Shown here piece by piece: positions 2,018 through 48,114 of a stretch of 64,000 nt of DNA (position 1 is the stretch's first letter; the number at the start of each line of letters is the position of its first letter). The position numbers and the translations under genes are program-made. The notes below the pieces were generated by a model. That model was given only the letters and a program-made list of their open reading frames with translations. It did not search any database and was not told the origin of the DNA. This DNA is from Candidatus Rokuibacteriota bacterium (GTDB lineage: Bacteria > Methylomirabilota > Methylomirabilia > Rokubacteriales > CSP1-6), in assembly GCA_023248995.1 (NCBI GenBank), contig JAHFDN010000010.1:1-64000 (forward strand), in the 5' to 3' direction.

Positions 2018-2722
2018 TCACGTACTCAGTGTGAAGTCGGTCACGCTGCCAAGCGCGATGGCCCTCAGCCTCACCGGCCTCAGTATGCGGACGTATCCCC
2101 GGCCGGTTTCGATCAGCCCCATCTCTCGAAGCTTGGCCAACTGTTTGTTGACGGCCTCCCTGGTGGCCCCGACCATCTCCGCAAGCGCTTCCTGGCCGAC
2201 GTGGACCTCCGAGGCCGCCACCGATGTCCCTTGGCGGATATCCGCCAACTGACAGAGGCGCTTCGCGAGGCGACATAGGAGGTCGAGAAAAGCCATGTCC
2301 GCCAGGAGCTCCGTGACGTGCCGCAGGCGTAGGCACAGGGAAAGGGTTATTTGCAGCGCAACATCGCTATGATCCCGCAAGAATGCCACCAGCCTGTCGC
2401 GGTAGATCGCCAACACTTCCGTCGGTTCCTCGGCGACCGCGGTGACATAGCGAGGCCCGCCATCAAGGACCGCCAACTCCCCGAAGTGATCACCAGGCCG
2501 AACCAGCGCGACGATGACCTCGGAACCGGTCTCCGACGGCAGGGTCATCATGACCGACCCCCTGATAAGGATGTACATCGCGTTGCCAGGGTCTCCGCGG
2601 TAAAAGATAATCTGACCCTTGCGGTAATGTTGATGGTGCGTCATTTCTGCCACGGTAGCGAGATGCTTGGGCTCGAGCGTGGAGAAGATAGGTACCTTCA
2701 GCAGGGCGGGTGCCTTATCCAT
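2018..2722 (-). CDS. Crp/Fnr family transcriptional regulator
   Basis: A 234-residue regulator with an N-terminal cyclic-nucleotide-binding beta barrel (roughly residues 12-125, including GNAMYILIRGSV and PGDHFGELAVLDGG) and a C-terminal winged helix (VGQEALAEMVGATREAVNKQ as recognition region). The GELAVL stretch resembles the CRP phosphate-binding cassette, but the usual R-S/T-A-x-V is replaced by GPRYVTAV, so cAMP binding is uncertain. No Fnr-type N-terminal cysteine cluster is present. The ATG at 2722 was chosen because GGGAGGA precedes it and the cNMP domain starts at once; upstream in-frame sequence does not look like protein. It probably controls the adjacent stress and carrier genes. 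Confidence 0.88.
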   Translation of the reverse strand: MDKAPALLKVPIFSTLEPKHLATVAEMTHHQHYRKGQIIFYRGDPGNAMYILIRGSVMMTLPSETGSEVIVALVRPGDHFGELAVLDGGPRYVTAVAEEPTEVLAIYRDRLVAFLRDHSDVALQITLSLCLRLRHVTELLADMAFLDLLCRLAKRLCQLADIRQGTSVAASEVHVGQEALAEMVGATREAVNKQLAKLREMGLIETGRGYVRILRPVRLRAIALGSVTDFTLST

Positions 2723-2805
2723 GTCAAGATCCTCCCAGCCTAAGGATCGCCAGCTTCCTGTGTATAGTAGCCCAATAGCGGGAAGCGGCAAGCCGCTTCG
2801 CCTAC

Positions 2806-3020
2806 CCTTGACGGTTCCGCGGTCCCCGGCGTACGGTGTGGTCGGCGGCAGCTGCTCCCGGGCGCGCGCGGCGGTCGTCATGTTCGAGCGGCGCATCGGG
2901 AGCCTGCCGGTGGTCGCGGACGGCAAGCTGGTCGGGATCCTCACGGAGCGCGATTTGCTCCTCGCGCTGGCGCGGGAGTTCCCCGATACCGGGGCGGACC
3001 AGGAGGGCTTCCTTTGGTGA
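2806..3020 (+). pseudogene. Remnant of a CBS-domain protein
   Basis: The plus-strand frame ending at a TGA at 3018-3020 contains MFERRIGSLPVVADGKLVGI followed by LTERDLLLALARE and ends GFLW. This is the second half of a CBS domain as found in small CBS-pair proteins. The first CBS half and the start of the gene are missing, and sequence upstream of about 2870 is no longer recognisable. The fragment probably belongs to a deleted gene. A short intact protein starting at the internal ATG (2880) cannot be excluded, but it would hold only half a domain. Confidence 0.55.
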
Positions 3021-3026
3021 ACCGCG

Positions 3027-3167
3027 ATGTTCCGGGATCGCGCTGAAGCGGGACGGGCTCTGGTGGCGGAGCTGGCGCTCCTGATCGCGGAGCCGTGCGA
3101 CAAAGAAACGCTAGCCCGCGGACGGGGCTACCAGGACAGATGGGCCCGGCGGTGGCTTATTCCCTGA
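3027..3167 (+). pseudogene. Remnant resembling the N-terminus of a phosphoribosyltransferase
   Basis: An ATG eight bases after the CBS remnant opens a 46-codon frame starting MFRDRAEAGRALVAEL, a very common opening of phosphoribosyltransferase-domain proteins (M-F-x-D-R-x-x-A-G). Homology appears to end after about 20 residues; the rest (ETLARGRGYQDRWARR) is unrelated to that family as far as I can tell, and the frame stops at 3167. I read it as a truncated, possibly chimeric leftover. Together with the CBS piece it explains the 2723-3156 stretch, which otherwise has no intact gene. Confidence 0.4.
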
Positions 3168-3564
3168 TCCTCTCGTCAAGCTCGGCGATTCGGGCCTGCA
3201 GGGCCGCCACTTGACGCTTCAATTCTTCGAGACCCTGCTCCAGAATCTCCCGCCGGCCCCTCTCGTCGGCTAGCAGAGTCTCGATGCGCCGGAGTGCCTG
3301 GACAATCGCGTGATACTCCTGCTCCAGCCTTTCGAGGCGCCGGTACACCTCATCAAAGTGCCCCAAGATGTCCCGGAGTTGCTGCTCGACGGTGTCGAAC
3401 CGCGTCTCGAAGCGCTGGTCGATGGCCACAAAGCGTTGGTCCATGGCCACGAAGCTCTGGTCAACGGCCACGAAGCGCTGGTCGATGGCCACGAAGCGCT
3501 GGTCGATCTGGGCGAACTGGCGACCGAGGAAGTCGACGAGTTGCTCGTATTCCGTATTGGTCAT
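3157..3564 (-). CDS. Coiled-coil protein with seven-residue tandem repeats
   Basis: A 135-residue hypothetical protein that looks entirely helical and soluble. Residues about 18-54 are five near-identical heptads of the type QRFVAID, encoded by a 21-bp tandem DNA repeat; this is followed by typical coiled-coil sequence with regular Leu/Ile spacing (EQQLRDILGHFDEVYRRLERL and ALQARIAELDERI). It resembles short bacterial coiled-coil proteins described as tropomyosin- or t-SNARE-like, without known function. Heptad copy number probably varies between strains through slippage. The ATG at 3564 starts directly at the first non-repeat segment. Confidence 0.6.
   Translation of the reverse strand: MTNTEYEQLVDFLGRQFAQIDQRFVAIDQRFVAVDQSFVAMDQRFVAIDQRFETRFDTVEQQLRDILGHFDEVYRRLERLEQEYHAIVQALRRIETLLADERGRREILEQGLEELKRQVAALQARIAELDERIRE
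3418..3501. repeat. 21-bp tandem repeat, four units
   Basis: Four consecutive 21-bp units (starts 3418, 3439, 3460, 3481), each close to GTCGATGGCCACGAAGCGCTG on the plus strand, with diverging partial units on both sides. They encode, on the minus strand, the heptads of the coiled-coil protein. Unit length equals exactly seven codons, so gain or loss of units keeps the reading frame. Confidence 0.85.
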
Positions 3565-11719: not shown

Positions 11720-11841
11720 CTTGTCAATCCTAGCCCCGCACCCCCCTGCGGGCAAGCCGCCCCAGGACCCGCCGGACCCGACTCTGCTGTTGACCGGCCT
11801 GGGGCCATGTGGTTACTATTGATAAAGACGATGAATAGTAG

Positions 11842-11851: not shown

Positions 11852-11882
11852 CGGGTTATTCAATATCATTCTTGGAAGGGCA

Positions 11883-12641
11883 ATGGGGGTTGAATCGCTC
11901 GCACTGAGCCATGAAGTCCGGTCCCGGCTGCGCGATGCCGTTCGGCGCGTCTACTCGGCAGCTGGAGACCCACGGGTGAGACACCCGTTTCCGGTAGGAA
12001 GGGAATTCGCCAGGAGCCTGGGTTACCCTGCCGAGCTGCTCGCCTCGGTGCCGTCAGCGTGCGTGGACGCGTTCGCAGGCGTCTCGAACGTCGCGGTCTT
12101 CGCGGACATTCCCCCGGGCGCGCGCGTGCTGGACATGGGCTGCGGTGCGGGGCTCGACACGGTGGTTGCCGCTAGGAGGGTGGGGCCTCACGGCAGCGTG
12201 ATCGGCGTCGACTTCAGCGAGGAGATGTTGGCCTACGCGCGCCTAGGAGCCGCCGCGGTCGGCGGCCGCACGATCACCCTCTGCCGGGCTGACGCCGAGC
12301 GCCTGCCCCTCCCCGACGGCGCCGTGGACGTGGCGCTGGTCAACGGCATGTTCAACCTCAACCCCAGTCGCGAGGAGATTTTCAGAGAGCTCGCCCGGGT
12401 TGTGCGCGTGGGTGGCAGCGTGTTCGCCGCGGAACTCATCCTGCGCGAGCCCCTGCCCGCCACGACCGCGTTCAGCGAGGCGGACTGGTTCGCCTGAGTG
12501 GCCGGCGCCAAGGAAGGCGGAGCCTTCCTCGACGAGTTCCGAGCCGCCGGGTTTCGCAACGCCGTGATCCTTCGAACGAGCCGCAACGCGCGGACCAAGG
12601 ATCCCCGCGTCCTAGCCGCGGAGGTGCTGGCTCAAAGATAA
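11883..12641 (+). CDS. ArsM-like SAM methyltransferase, candidate selenoprotein (in-frame TGA at codon 205)
   Basis: Reading through one TGA (12495-12497) gives a 252-residue methyltransferase ending at TAA 12639-12641. Motif I is LDMGCGAGLDTVVAARRVGP, then GSVIGVDFSEEML and FNLNPSREE, closely matching arsenite methyltransferases. After the TGA the frame continues VAGAKEGGAFLDEFRAAGF, the normal C-terminal continuation, and the stop sits where ArsM proteins have the conserved arsenic-binding Cys (C-V/I-A-G-A). An 8-bp hairpin lies 13 nt after the TGA. Selenocysteine insertion is therefore plausible; a recent nonsense mutation is the alternative. The gene stands alone. GGAAGG precedes the ATG. 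Confidence 0.7.
12498..12529 (+). promoter_or_regulatory. Possible bacterial SECIS element
   Basis: Directly after the in-frame TGA come 13 nt, then AGGAAGGC (12511-12518), loop GGA (12519-12521) and GCCTTCCT (12522-12529), a perfect 8-bp stem. The apical loop starts 21 nt after the TGA and opens with two G residues. Both properties fit the usual description of bacterial SECIS hairpins (short loop with early G, some 16-37 nt from UGA). The stem lies within coding sequence, as expected in bacteria. Confidence 0.5.
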
Positions 12642-42677: not shown

Positions 42678-45044
42678 ATGAGTCGAGGCACGGAGCGTTC
42701 GCCATCGGCACCAGCTCGTTCCGCCGAGGCCATGATCCGCGAGGACATTGTCCAGAAGTTCCCGGAGATCTTCGGGACCAAGAAAATCAACGGCCGAGAA
42801 GTCCATGTCGAACAGTTGATCGCCACACTCACCCGAGAGCTGGGTCCCGAGATCGCCGCGGCCCTCACTAGGCGCCGGGCGCTCCTCGGATCCCCCGCGC
42901 CGGTCAGGGAGAAATATGCCTGGCCGAAGTGGGACGACACGTTCGAGGATCCTGTCACGGGGAAGTTCTGGACATTTCGCCAGATCGTCCAGGGCCTGGT
43001 TGATAACTTTCTCGGTCGGGACAGCCAGTGGCGCTGGCGGCTCAACGACGAGGTGCCCGTCCCGAAGGATGCCCACCCGCTGGCGAATCCCGGCTTGGAG
43101 CTCACCGGGCCGTGGCATCCGCTGGACATGGCCTTCAACGCGTTGAACAGCCCGGCGCCGATGAATATGCCGGACTTCGAAGACGCCTCGCCGCCCCATT
43201 TCCAGCCCAACGGCACGCCCAGAAATGAGCCCGTGGGGATTTTTGCGGCCATGCAGAACGCCAAAGAGATTTTGGAAGGCCGCTGGGCCGACCGCCCCTA
43301 CGAGGTGGTGAAAAAAGGCAAGGTGCGCGCGTACAAGATCAAAACGTCCCCGGCCCAGTGGCCGACCCGGTTTGCCCGACCTCCCGGGATCCACGTGCAG
43401 TATGACCACGTCACAGTGGACGGCCACCCCGTGCCCGGCGTGATCCCCATCATCCTCCTCTGGGCCGTCAACAACTACGAGGCCCTCACGCGCGCCGGCA
43501 CCGGCGTTTACTACTATATCCCGAAGATTCAGACCCCTCAGGAAGCCCTCATTGTCGAGAAGCTCCTGGCGCGGGTGGAAGACGCGATCGGCGTCCGGCC
43601 CGGCACCTTCAAGATCAAAGTCCTCTATGAGGAGGGCAATGCGGGCCGGTTCTTGCCCGCGATCGCCTGGGTCTTGCGGCGCCGGCTGCTTGGGACGAAC
43701 GTCGGTCGCTGGGACTACCTGGGCAGCGTCATCGAGATGTGGAAGGCCGACCCGCAGGGCGTCTTTCCGGATCCGCAGTCGATCGGCATGGCCTCCCCGA
43801 GCATGATTGCGTATCAGCGGTATAACGCGCTGATGATGCTCATGGCCGGCATGAAGAACGGCGAGCTCAGCCAGGGGGCCCCCATCGGCGGGATGGCGGC
43901 GGTTATGATCTACCAGCCCAGCGATCCCTATGGCCGGTCGAGGTATAACCCGCTGGCCCTGCGTGCGATGGTCATCGACAAGCTGCGAGAGCGCCTGCTG
44001 GGTCTCATGTTTGTGCCCGAGGCGCCGCTGTCTCGAGAGCCCACCCTGGAAGACATCCTCCTAAGCCGGGTGAAGGGACGACTCTATGATGCCTATCGGC
44101 AAAGCTGGGTCGCCAGCCCAGAACCGGCCTACGTCGCTGCTGGCAATGACCCCTTGCGGGCTTCTGTGAAAGATCTCCAGGCGATCCTCGATGCGCCGCG
44201 TGAGACTCACGACGTGAAAGGCAAACCGTTGCCGACGGTCGCCAGCGGTCTCGTGGACGCGGAGCGGCTCGTGTTGCAATCCCGCGGCTTGTTGAACCCG
44301 CAGGGCAAGATCACGCCCCTGGTCATCACCAAGGACATGTTCAACACGCCGGAGAAACTCTTCACGCAAGAACTCTGGGACAGCATCTACGGGGTGCCGA
44401 AGGGTGAGATCACCATTGAGCGTATCCAACACGCGTTCTACATGGCGGCGAACTACGGCTTCCAGATCCTCAACGGTAACTTCGCGGCCGCCATCGACGA
44501 CTACGAGCTTTTGCTGCGCTTCATGAATGACCTCGCCACCTACCGGATCGATGTGTCCTGGCTGTGGAGCCTCATCTATCACCAGGCCGCCATCACCAAG
44601 GACGGCTACCTCAAACGGCCGGCGCTCACCGAGGATGGGGTCGTGCCGGCCGTGAACGCCCTTCCGGTCAAGGCCGGGACCCGCTTCACCAAGGAGCTGT
44701 TCGAGAAGTTGTGGGACTACCACAACGAATGGACCTCCGAGTTCTTCGCCGAGCTGGACCGCCGCGGCGATCCGGGCCGCTTTGACCGCGCCAAAGCGCC
44801 CGTCATCATGGAGCTCTTGAAGCGCCAGCTGCTCTCGCCCCGCTACATCCAGCACAGCGCCCGCGTGCTCTTCGTGGTAGGGGCGGCCAACGCGCAGGAG
44901 CGCGCACAGATTCTCCAGGCGATCTTCGACCTCTCCCGCGAGGAAATCGTCAAGCGCGTTCACGCAGGCGCCCTGAACAAGATCGCCCTGGGTGCCCACG
45001 ACTACGTCTATGACATCTTTCCAGGCGTCGAAGGAGGTGCGTAG
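42678..45044 (+). CDS. Malate synthase, long divergent form
   Basis: A 788-residue protein with the malate synthase fold, against about 530 (A type) or 720 (G type) normally. GIHVQYDHVTVDGHPVPG and TRAGTGVYYYIPKIQ hold the conserved Arg (R272); VGRWDYLGSVIEM and GAPIGGMAAVMI match the barrel core; FMNDLATYRIDVSWLW holds the expected catalytic base Asp (D618). It should condense glyoxylate and acetyl-CoA to malate. Extra length lies in a 170-residue N-terminal region and an insertion after IGGMAAV. AAGGAGA precedes the ATG. No isocitrate lyase is in the window. Its 3' end is partly duplicated at 48.3 and 51.1 kb. Confidence 0.75.
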   Translation: MSRGTERSPSAPARSAEAMIREDIVQKFPEIFGTKKINGREVHVEQLIATLTRELGPEIAAALTRRRALLGSPAPVREKYAWPKWDDTFEDPVTGKFWTFRQIVQGLVDNFLGRDSQWRWRLNDEVPVPKDAHPLANPGLELTGPWHPLDMAFNALNSPAPMNMPDFEDASPPHFQPNGTPRNEPVGIFAAMQNAKEILEGRWADRPYEVVKKGKVRAYKIKTSPAQWPTRFARPPGIHVQYDHVTVDGHPVPGVIPIILLWAVNNYEALTRAGTGVYYYIPKIQTPQEALIVEKLLARVEDAIGVRPGTFKIKVLYEEGNAGRFLPAIAWVLRRRLLGTNVGRWDYLGSVIEMWKADPQGVFPDPQSIGMASPSMIAYQRYNALMMLMAGMKNGELSQGAPIGGMAAVMIYQPSDPYGRSRYNPLALRAMVIDKLRERLLGLMFVPEAPLSREPTLEDILLSRVKGRLYDAYRQSWVASPEPAYVAAGNDPLRASVKDLQAILDAPRETHDVKGKPLPTVASGLVDAERLVLQSRGLLNPQGKITPLVITKDMFNTPEKLFTQELWDSIYGVPKGEITIERIQHAFYMAANYGFQILNGNFAAAIDDYELLLRFMNDLATYRIDVSWLWSLIYHQAAITKDGYLKRPALTEDGVVPAVNALPVKAGTRFTKELFEKLWDYHNEWTSEFFAELDRRGDPGRFDRAKAPVIMELLKRQLLSPRYIQHSARVLFVVGAANAQERAQILQAIFDLSREEIVKRVHAGALNKIALGAHDYVYDIFPGVEGGA

Positions 45045-45142
45045 CCAACAGAATCGGGTGTTATCGGGCGCTCGGCCCCTGGGGCCGAGGGCGAACCCGA
45101 GCCCGGCGGCCCCCCGGCTGTCCGGAGCAGCCTGCACGGCCC
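45036..45142 (+). repeat. 107-bp direct repeat, copy 1
   Basis: Starts in the last two codons of the malate synthase gene and covers its 3' flank. The first 52 bp or so are identical to copy 2 at 48294-48400; the middle diverges and the last 30 bp are again nearly identical. It contains a 9-bp hairpin (CTCGGCCCC / GGGGCCGAG) that may end transcription of the malate synthase gene. The rest of the gap to 45276 shows no gene. Confidence 0.85.
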
Positions 45143-45276
45143 TGGTCCTCCTCACCCTGCTCGTGAAACGCCGCTGAACCGGCCGACACCCTGGTAACGC
45201 GGAGGCCCACTGAGCATACCCAGGGCGAGTCGTCTCGTAAGAACCTCGGTTTCAACACAGCGGTTGTTCTGGTAAG

Positions 45277-45594
45277 ATGTATTTAATGCTTCGCCTCGCC
45301 CTTTTGCTCAGCCTGTTCGCGCTGCTGGACGTCGCCACCCCCATCGTCCCCACGGGCCAAGCGTTCGAATGGGACGATGAGGAAGAGGTCACCGAACCGC
45401 GCAGGCCGGTAACCCGCCGGCAGCGCACCAGGGTTGCTCCGGTCTCCCGGCCTCCCGATCCGCGCGCGATCCGAACCCACCGCTTCCCAATACCTCTCGT
45501 CTCCGCAAGCAGGCCGCTCACCGCGTGGCTCATCCCGCTGACCCGGTCCCACGTGGCATCGACCGATTCCCTCTCTCCGACCGAAGACCACTAA
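45277..45594 (+). CDS. Small secreted hypothetical protein
   Basis: A 105-residue frame with a clear signal peptide (MLRLALLLSLFALLDVATPI, cleavage perhaps near GQA-FEW) followed by an acidic patch (EWDDEEE) and an Arg/Pro-rich, apparently disordered tail. No family recognised. The ribosome binding site is weak (GGTAAG). Coding status is supported mainly by the signal peptide and by position before two membrane protein genes on the same strand. Confidence 0.4.
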   Translation: MYLMLRLALLLSLFALLDVATPIVPTGQAFEWDDEEEVTEPRRPVTRRQRTRVAPVSRPPDPRAIRTHRFPIPLVSASRPLTAWLIPLTRSHVASTDSLSPTEDH

Positions 45595-45680
45595 ACTCCC
45601 TCATCTTCCGTTCTCCTAACCGTCTGCCGCCTCCAGGCAGCAGGCACACGTTTCCATTCTGCAATTCAGGAGAAGAAGAG

Positions 45681-45872
45681 ATGACACCCTGGAGTGTTCA
45701 CAAAAAAGATTCTCCTTCGGACCGCGTCGACGAGGACGAAGAGTACCAGTCCGAGGAAGTCATGCTCGAGCGCCGCATGATCAGGAAGATGATCGGTGTT
45801 ATAACGCTCGTCCTTGGCTTGGGACTCGTGTTCAATGCGCTCCTCACGATCCTCGGTCGCCTGAACGAGTAA
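45681..45872 (+). CDS. Small single-span membrane protein
   Basis: A 63-residue protein: an acidic N-terminal half (DRVDEDEEYQSEE), a basic patch (ERRMIRKM) and one C-terminal membrane helix (IGVITLVLGLGLVFNALLTI). AGGAGAAGAAG lies directly before the ATG. It ends 4 bp before the TerC-family gene and is probably co-translated with it, possibly as an accessory subunit. No known family recognised. Confidence 0.6.
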   Translation: MTPWSVHKKDSPSDRVDEDEEYQSEEVMLERRMIRKMIGVITLVLGLGLVFNALLTILGRLNE

Positions 45873-45876
45873 CGTC

Positions 45877-46683
45877 ATGGTGCTCCCCACGGACTTGGAG
45901 TTCTGGGGTCGCGTGCTCGCGATCATTGTCATCGACCTGATGCTCGCCGGTGACAATGCCCTGATCATCGCCCTCGCCGTTCGCTCGCTGCCCAGACGCC
46001 AGCAGCGCTGGGGAATGATCTGGGGGACGATCGGTGCCGTCGGCTTGCGCCTCGCTCTCATCACCGTCGCGACGCTGCTGTTGAAAATCTCCTTCCTGCA
46101 ATTGGCGGGCGGGGGGCTCCTTCTCTGGATCGCGATAAAGCTCGCACGTCAATCCGTCGGGGCCGAAAAAGAAGTGCGCCAAGGGATCTCTCTGCGGAAC
46201 GCGATCTGGATCATCGTTGCGGCCGATGCGGTAATGAGCCTCGATAATGTGGTGGGGGTGGCCGGGGCGGCGCGCGGGGACCTCCGGCTCGTCATCTTTG
46301 GTATCGGGCTTTCACTGCCCCTTGTCGTGTGGGGGAGCGGAATCCTCGCCCGGTTGATGAATCGCTTCGAGTGGATCATATGGCTCGGGGGAGGGGTGAT
46401 CGGCTACGTGGCCGGGGAAATGATCCTCGCCGACCAAGCCGTTCGTCGATGGCTCAGCAGCGACATGGTGGCGCTCGACGCCCTCTTTTCGCTGGGGCTC
46501 GGCCTAGTGGTCATCGCCCTCGGCTGGTGGTCCTGGCGCGCCCGACGGGCAGGAATTCCCCGTTCCGTTCCCACGCCCACGTCGCAGGGCGCAAACTCCC
46601 CGCCGGCCAAGCCCAGCACCCATCCCGAAGGCCGGGAGCCCGCCCCGTTGGAAGACCGAGGGAGCGGTAGCGGTCAGCGCTGA
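45877..46683 (+). CDS. TerC/YjbE-family integral membrane protein
   Basis: A 268-residue protein with about seven membrane segments of the TerC/Alx/YjbE family. The typical acidic intramembrane motifs are IVIDLMLAGDNALIIALAVR near residue 20 and IWIIVAADAVMSLDNVVGVAG near residue 115. Members act in manganese or calcium export and tellurite or pH stress. The C-terminal 45 residues are Pro-rich and disordered. It follows a 63-residue membrane protein by 4 bp. Confidence 0.88.
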   Translation: MVLPTDLEFWGRVLAIIVIDLMLAGDNALIIALAVRSLPRRQQRWGMIWGTIGAVGLRLALITVATLLLKISFLQLAGGGLLLWIAIKLARQSVGAEKEVRQGISLRNAIWIIVAADAVMSLDNVVGVAGAARGDLRLVIFGIGLSLPLVVWGSGILARLMNRFEWIIWLGGGVIGYVAGEMILADQAVRRWLSSDMVALDALFSLGLGLVVIALGWWSWRARRAGIPRSVPTPTSQGANSPPAKPSTHPEGREPAPLEDRGSGSGQR

Positions 46684-46893: not shown

Positions 46894-48114
46894 ATGAGCG
46901 ATAATCCATTCAAACATCGGATTCACCACCCCCCCATGACAGCCGATCCCCTCGTCTTCCGCGATCTCGCCTATGTCTTCGGCGCAGCCGTACTCGGCGG
47001 TATCGTGGCATGGTTCGCCCGTCAGCCGTTAATCCTCGGCTACGTCGCCGGTGGTATCCTGATCGGTCCGTTTACGCCCGGCCCTACCGTCTCTGACCTC
47101 CACACCTTCGAGCTGTTCGCCGAGATTGGTGTCGTTCTCCTCATGTTCTCCATCGGCATTGAGTTCTCGATCCAGGACCTCCTAGGGGTGAGGTGGGTGG
47201 CGCTCGTCGGCGGTCCGCTCGGCATCCTGCTCTCCATGGGGCTGGGTGCCGTGGTCGGCAGCCTGATAGGGTGGAGCATCCTTCAGGGGCTCGTCATCGG
47301 AGCGGTTGTGTCGGTGGCCAGCACGATGGTGCTGGCCCGTCTTCTCTTGGACCAAGGAGCGCTGCAGTCCCGTCACGGCCGCGTCATGATAGGCATCACC
47401 CTGATGGAGGATCTGTGCGTCGTCGTCCTAACGGTCCTCCTCCCGGCCCTGAGCGTCTGGGAATCGGCGCGGCTCATCGCGATCGGGCTGGGATTAGGAA
47501 AGGCTGCACTCATCCTCGTCCCCTTCGCCTATCTCGCGGCAAAGGGGATCCCGCGGCTCTTGACGGGAGTCGCCAGAACCAACAACGACGAACTCTTCTT
47601 GCTAGTGGCGCTCACCATTGGCCTGGGCACCGCGGCACTCACCCAGTCGCTCGGTCTCTCTCTCGCCCTGGGCGCATTCCTGGCAGGACTCATCATTAGC
47701 GGATCCGACTATGCCCACGAAACGCTGGCGAGACTCCTCCCCCTCCGGGATGCCTTCGCCGCGCTCTTCTTCGTCACCATCGGCACGCTAATCAATCCTG
47801 CGACCATCGCTGCAAACCTGCCGCTTCTGGGTGCGATGATCGGCCTCATCGTGATCGGGAAGCTCGCGATCTGGACCGTCATCGTGTGGCTCTTCCGTCA
47901 TCCGCTCTCAACCGCTTTCCTGGTCGCCGTTGGTCTGACCCAGATCGGGGAGTTCTCCTTCGTGCTAGTTCAGGTTGCTCGCCAGGCAGGCCACATCGGC
48001 AGCGAGGTGTACAACGCGACTCTCGCCGCCTCTCTGGTCAGCATCCTGCTGAACGGCCTATTGGTACGCCATGCGCCCTCATGGATACCCGCCCGCCGGC
48101 GACCTTCCAACTGA
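46894..48114 (+). CDS. CPA2-type cation/proton antiporter (KefB-like, membrane domain only)
   Basis: A 406-residue membrane protein with about 12-13 segments. GYVAGGILIGPFTPGP, FSIGIEFSIQDLLGVRWVAL, GSLIGWSILQGLVIGAVVSVAST and LALGAFLAGLIISGSDYAHE match the Kef/CPA2 family. No RCK/TrkA-N domain follows, unlike KefB/KefC, so gating by NAD or glutathione adducts is unlikely. The start may instead be the ATG at 46936, where conserved sequence begins. It is bracketed by two tRNA 3' fragments and lies inside the 107-bp direct repeats. Confidence 0.85.
   Translation: MSDNPFKHRIHHPPMTADPLVFRDLAYVFGAAVLGGIVAWFARQPLILGYVAGGILIGPFTPGPTVSDLHTFELFAEIGVVLLMFSIGIEFSIQDLLGVRWVALVGGPLGILLSMGLGAVVGSLIGWSILQGLVIGAVVSVASTMVLARLLLDQGALQSRHGRVMIGITLMEDLCVVVLTVLLPALSVWESARLIAIGLGLGKAALILVPFAYLAAKGIPRLLTGVARTNNDELFLLVALTIGLGTAALTQSLGLSLALGAFLAGLIISGSDYAHETLARLLPLRDAFAALFFVTIGTLINPATIAANLPLLGAMIGLIVIGKLAIWTVIVWLFRHPLSTAFLVAVGLTQIGEFSFVLVQVARQAGHIGSEVYNATLAASLVSILLNGLLVRHAPSWIPARRRPSN

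Follow-up and report, generated by a model that had tools for sequence, protein, structure and literature searches.

A predicted standalone selenocysteine methyltransferase of the ArsM superfamily in Candidatus Rokuibacteriota that retains one of three arsenic-ligand positions

The 64 000-nucleotide stretch of DNA analysed here (the window; contig C35 of genome G000, 2.34 Mb, 97% complete, from a soil-type bacterium) carries at 11883-12641 on the plus strand one SAM methyltransferase gene with a single in-frame TGA (12495-12497). The UGA is almost certainly read as selenocysteine (Sec). On balance, we favour an overall reading in which the product is a standalone Sec methyltransferase that acts on a soft, thiol-seeking substrate and uses Sec as a ligand. 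Among selenoproteins, most of which are regarded as oxidoreductases, methyltransferases form a small minority.

Results

One methyltransferase gene with an in-frame TGA

The frame opens with ATG at 11883 and runs for 47 codons beyond the TGA to a TAA at 12639-12641. Its features are as follows; the NG clade is the branch of homologues with an NGxxNL motif that is described below.

11883-12641, plus strand: coding sequence, predicted 252-residue Sec-containing SAM methyltransferase made by TGA readthrough (full-length homologue alignment)
12495-12497, plus strand: in-frame TGA, putative Sec205, in the column of CmArsM Cys224 (TGA in 17/17 closest homologues; Cys in canonical ArsM)
12498-12641, plus strand: the 47 post-TGA codons and TAA, with the conserved VAGAKEGGAFLDEFRAAGF... 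tail (full-length alignment, codon-position bias)
12126-12158, plus strand: SAM-binding motif I, VLDMGCGAGLD, residues 82-92 (Pfam Methyltransf_31/25/11, alignment)
12081-12083, plus strand: Val67 at the position of the CmArsM As ligand Cys72, ligand lost (PDB alignment; lost in the NG clade)
12345-12347, plus strand: Gly155 in NGMFNL, at the position of the CmArsM As ligand Cys174, ligand lost (PDB alignment; clade-wide NGxxNL versus NCxxNL)
11874-11879, plus strand: Shine-Dalgarno-like GGAAGG, 3 nt 5' of the ATG (sequence)
11790-11819, plus strand: sigma-70-like promoter match TTGACC-18-TACTAT (consensus match only)

The read-through protein matches Pfam Methyltransf_31 (9.6e-22) and its homologues align over their full length. 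Against the nearest relative (L107), the 47 codons after the TGA show 6, 3 and 17 differences at codon positions 1, 2 and 3 respectively, and the upstream part likewise differs mainly at third positions; judged by such comparisons, the codons 3' of the TGA are under purifying selection. A first-pass annotation had placed this TGA inside a single methyltransferase and had taken the downstream 47 codons as a continuation of the family sequence; both points hold, and its coordinates are all correct. No flanking gene checked on either side shares the strand of this gene, which thus appears to form a transcription unit by itself.

The TGA is conserved among relatives

Close relatives were sought with peptide patterns in 84 980 species genomes; one pattern held Cys at the Sec position, so the scan was unbiased towards TGA. 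It yielded 17 genes with 48-68% identity (best segment), among whose titles are Candidatus Rokuibacteriota, Deltaproteobacteria, Chloroflexota, Solibacteraceae/Bryobacterales, Planctomycetota, Nitrospira and Myxococcales. The exact TGA stands at the Sec codon in every one. Further genes were collected from the window phylum (95 genomes) and from the phylum (396 genomes) of G102, in which the Bryobacteraceae locus L016 lies. TGA is found in 27 of 27 window-clade genes with a readable codon, from several phyla. The comparison of TGA and Cys in this column, proposed in the first-pass annotation, gives TGA in all readable window-clade genes, mostly Cys in canonical ArsM, and two Cys forms (L148 and L156) in the NG clade.

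It is very improbable that the TGA is an ordinary stop, whether as the end of a protein truncated to 204 residues, with the 3' part of the gene decaying, or as a sequencing error for TGC/TGT. The same TGA occurs in independent genomes of several phyla, the downstream codons and the hairpin described below bear signs of selection, and the genome has the full Sec machinery. A locus of another NG subclade speaks for a stop: L115 (G004:C265) has TAA in place of TGA, in a genome that is 76% complete and in which selA was not detected. That gene was possibly inactivated after losing Sec decoding, or the TAA is possibly an assembly error. For the window gene, an ordinary stop, a pseudogene, a frameshift and a sequencing error are rejected on the basis of the conserved TGA together with the downstream selection.

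Sec machinery of the genome

G000 carries all four genes of Sec synthesis and decoding that the first-pass annotation had named for a search. On C51, selB (42802-44682) lies beside selA (44713-46083), and selC, a tRNA-Sec with anticodon tca (47447-47540), is nearby. A Sec-type selD (G000:C22:271492-272433) has an in-frame TGA of its own in CAGUASKMGPGEL and so probably is itself a selenoprotein. UGA is otherwise an ordinary stop, ending 8 of the 11 neighbouring genes checked. No support was found for a host that reads UGA as one of the standard amino acids, and the probability of this is negligible, given these stops and a true tRNA-Sec; genome-wide reassignment is rejected because TGA is the normal stop of neighbouring genes.

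Among the 95 window-phylum genomes, selA occurs in 83, including all those with a complete window-clade gene. SelB scores above its cut-off in 15 of 18 homologue genomes and was not found at that level in G105, G107 and G110, all draft MAGs; SelB fragments are visible in G105 and G110. The machinery, the conserved TGA, the conserved hairpin and the use of UGA as a stop elsewhere make Sec about as certain as sequence allows. These lines and the Cys homologues all agree with the selenoprotein proposed at the outset.

A conserved hairpin follows the TGA

12511-12529, plus strand: bSECIS-like hairpin AGGAAGGC / GGA / GCCTTCCT (8-bp stem)
12511-12518 with 12522-12529, plus strand: the two arms of the stem; loop GGA at 12519-12521

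The loop starts 21 nt after the TGA and its first two bases are G, as bSECIS requires; stem length, loop, positions and spacing are as first annotated. We assessed the hairpin by shuffling synonymous codons, with weights taken from the codon use of the gene in question. All 8 pairs are present in 24 of 27 window-clade genes, against 4.8 expected by shuffling (P ~2e-16 if the genes are independent). For the window gene alone, all 8 pairs have P = 0.29 and the folding energy has P = 0.24, i.e. it is not stronger than the peptide predicts; the significance comes from conservation over the 27 genes, the single-gene evidence being weak. The best stem has a median of 8 in Sec genes versus 4 in Cys homologues (P = 4e-14). 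On these comparisons the conservation of the hairpin reflects selection, and such a hairpin is absent from the Cys homologues. The encoded peptide EGGAFL hardly varies in the window clade, so column-wise covariation there is weak, with one compensatory pair; shuffling and the comparison with Cys homologues are thus the informative tests. Other NG subclades have differently sequenced hairpins, GCTCTGCT-GGA-AGCAGAGC and GCCAGAAGC-GGG-GCTTCTGGC, at a similar distance, and in other Sec subclades the loop lies 16-23 nt after the Sec codon. An Rfam search with the hairpin gave no meaningful match.

ArsM fold with two of three arsenic ligands lost

The AF2 model of the protein (pLDDT 88.6) has the SAM-binding Rossmann methyltransferase fold of ArsM, in agreement with the Pfam and structure matches. 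Its ten best PDB matches are ArsM, CrArsM or CmArsM structures; later matches are methyltransferases of other small molecules, AtmM and RebM among them. Aligned to CmArsM, the protein has Val67, Gly155 and Sec205 at the positions of Cys72, Cys174 and Cys224. The TGA does lie in an As(III)-binding Cys column, as first annotated, and the three-ligand As(III) site is missing, with Cys72 and Cys174 lost both in this protein and clade-wide. In CmArsM, the first methylation step requires all three Cys and the second requires Cys174 and Cys224; C174A and C224A are inactive and C72A loses the first step (PMC3877260).

The profile scores place the protein outside the curated families. Its best NCBIfam match is NF041537, at 173.7 bits versus a cut-off of 510 and over positions 3-229 of 345 only, and it does not have the C-terminal AhpD domain of a full-length match. 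NF047649 gives 170 bits (cut-off 460) and the ArsM model NF008823 gives 142.5-148.8 bits, below the curated cut-off of 263; the protein reaches no NCBIfam ArsM cut-off. G000 has a separate canonical Cys-ArsM (C17:33545-34378, 348 bits).

We consider it quite unlikely that the protein is a true arsenite methyltransferase in which Sec is simply one of three As ligands. The structural matches, the Sec in the Cys224 column, the listing of Sec-ArsM as a prokaryotic selenoprotein family (PMC13188914) and an ArsR/SmtB-type regulator upstream of one homologue (L021, see below) are in its favour. However, the equivalents of Cys72 and Cys174 are Val and Gly, a loss shared by the whole clade, and CmArsM C174A is reported to be inactive on both As(III) and MAs(III) (PMC3877260). 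The NF008823 score (149 of 263 bits), the lack of an ars operon and the canonical Cys-ArsM already in the genome also argue against it. As worded, the earlier proposal of an action on arsenic finds no support, in view of the two absent ligands, the profile score, the separate Cys-ArsM and the gene context, which is not an ars neighbourhood.

The NG clade

A tree of 78 sequences has a single split (support 98) between a canonical side with NCxxNL (25 Cys, 1 Sec) and a clade with NGxxNL (50 Sec, 2 Cys). With 20 sequences found by NF041537 added (tree of 94 rows), the NG clade has 70 Sec and 2 Cys. These counts hold for the sampled sequences only, and the canonical side is undersampled because NG-type profiles were used for sampling. 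The standalone genes of the window clade are monophyletic (100), and the NC or canonical side has 98-99. The window protein has NGxxNL, lacks Cys72, has Sec at the third ligand and groups within the NG clade. Double selenoproteins are also NG-type, both those above the NF041537 cut-off (L171-L174) and one just below it (L175).

On G117:C123, in the phylum of G102, the Cys-type L148 and the Sec-type L169 lie ~1.2 kb apart in divergent orientation; the Cys copy is within a 562-codon open frame. In a Tissierellia MAG, L030 encodes a canonical ArsM above the NF008823 cut-off that keeps the other two As-ligand Cys and has TGA at the third. On this sequence evidence, Cys and Sec were exchanged independently within the canonical branch, at L030.

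Gene neighbourhood

The 17 loci have no conserved partner gene: any given neighbour recurs at a few of them at most, and no ars operon or conserved ars neighbours occur around the methyltransferase loci examined. Pfam scans of the adjacent genes gave unrelated families, apart from LysR genes. A divergent LysR-type gene adjoins the methyltransferase at L019, L023, L107/L192 and L147, the last from another NG subclade. The three LysR proteins tested match best the selenium-metabolism-associated LysR model NF040786, with 205-242 of 250 bits, below its cut-off.

At L021, from a Nitrospira MAG in which SelB above the cut-off was not found, the ArsR/SmtB-type regulator lies upstream of the methyltransferase and a GRDB-like selenoprotein B fragment (2721-3194) lies ~650 nt downstream of it. 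The window-clade gene and selA are ~8 kb apart in both G010 and G014; in G010 a FetAB-like metal-efflux ABC transporter pair (L191 9857-11502) is directly upstream of the window-clade gene. An OsmC-like gene is directly upstream at L012 and an AhpC/TSA gene is downstream at L023.

These last two genes, and the second Sec that NG-type fused relatives have in an AhpD-like (CxxU) domain (NF041537), are consistent with a Sec that serves redox control or partner docking. A selenylsulfide would then join Sec to a thiol or a redox partner, and the methyl acceptor would be an ordinary small molecule. We regard this as rather unlikely, since Sec sits exactly at the ArsM substrate-ligand position, the window protein has neither CxxU nor UxxC, and the neighbours vary between loci.

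Discussion

Proposed function

We propose a SAM-dependent methyltransferase with one domain, a member of the ArsM superfamily, as the product of the gene; the UGA would be decoded by SelB and tRNA-Sec under the direction of the hairpin at 12511-12529. By homology and fold, Sec205 would replace the As-ligand Cys224 beside the SAM pocket. Because the other As(III) ligands are lost clade-wide, the window clade would have no conserved soft ligand but the selenolate, setting aside the Cys in SAM motif I. The selenolate may bind or activate a soft, thiol-seeking substrate for methyl transfer. Candidates are an organometalloid such as a thiol-bound or already methylated arsenical, a species of Se, Te or Hg, and small thiols or selenols; the protein is probably not a canonical inorganic-arsenite methyltransferase. 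The substrate is suggested by superfamily membership alone, and a lone selenolate in a methyltransferase could instead have a redox-regulatory or structural role.

More tentatively, with confidence somewhat short of even, we speculate that the NG clade arose from ArsM or is its sister and became near-obligately Sec-dependent as two As ligands were lost. It may form a Sec-dependent methyltransferase class with a different substrate, such as an organoarsenical or a species of selenium or mercury. Its members would be standalone in Rokubacteria-like bacteria, Acidobacteria, Myxococcota and Planctomycetota, and elsewhere fused to second selenoprotein domains.

Nearly all sampled members of the clade (70 Sec against 2 Cys) have Sec at a position known to hold arsenic, with the partner ligands gone. 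The clade therefore offers a clear test of what a lone active-site selenolate does in a SAM methyltransferase and of which soft element is handled. Such genes are easily missed, because standard gene calling stops at the UGA, 48 residues short. In the accessible literature, whose coverage of these families is incomplete, we found no description linking the loss of the two As-binding Cys to a near-fixed Sec.

Comparison with known systems

Sec-containing ArsM is already known and is listed as UxxG (PMC13188914; GOS survey, PMC2398784), and fused relatives are already modelled by NCBI; the window gene is a variant of these. Like Sec-ArsM (NF008823/PRK11873), its product would be a SAM methyltransferase with Sec in place of the third As-ligand Cys, in U-x-x-G. 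Sec-ArsM L030 (275 bits) keeps Cys in GLGCGNP and NCVINL, whereas the window clade lacks both. The ArsM/AhpD double selenoproteins of NF041537 (L171-L175) share the NG-type domain with Sec in the same column. However, NF041537, NF041536 and NF047649 describe fusion proteins in which a second domain is present and, as a rule, a second Sec, whereas the window protein is standalone with one. CmArsM, CrArsM and human AS3MT (PDB 4fr0, 6cx6, 5evj, 8xt7) have the same fold and the Cys224 position, in chains of 321-387 residues compared with 252 here. Of their three-Cys As(III) site, the window protein keeps one position, as a predicted Sec.
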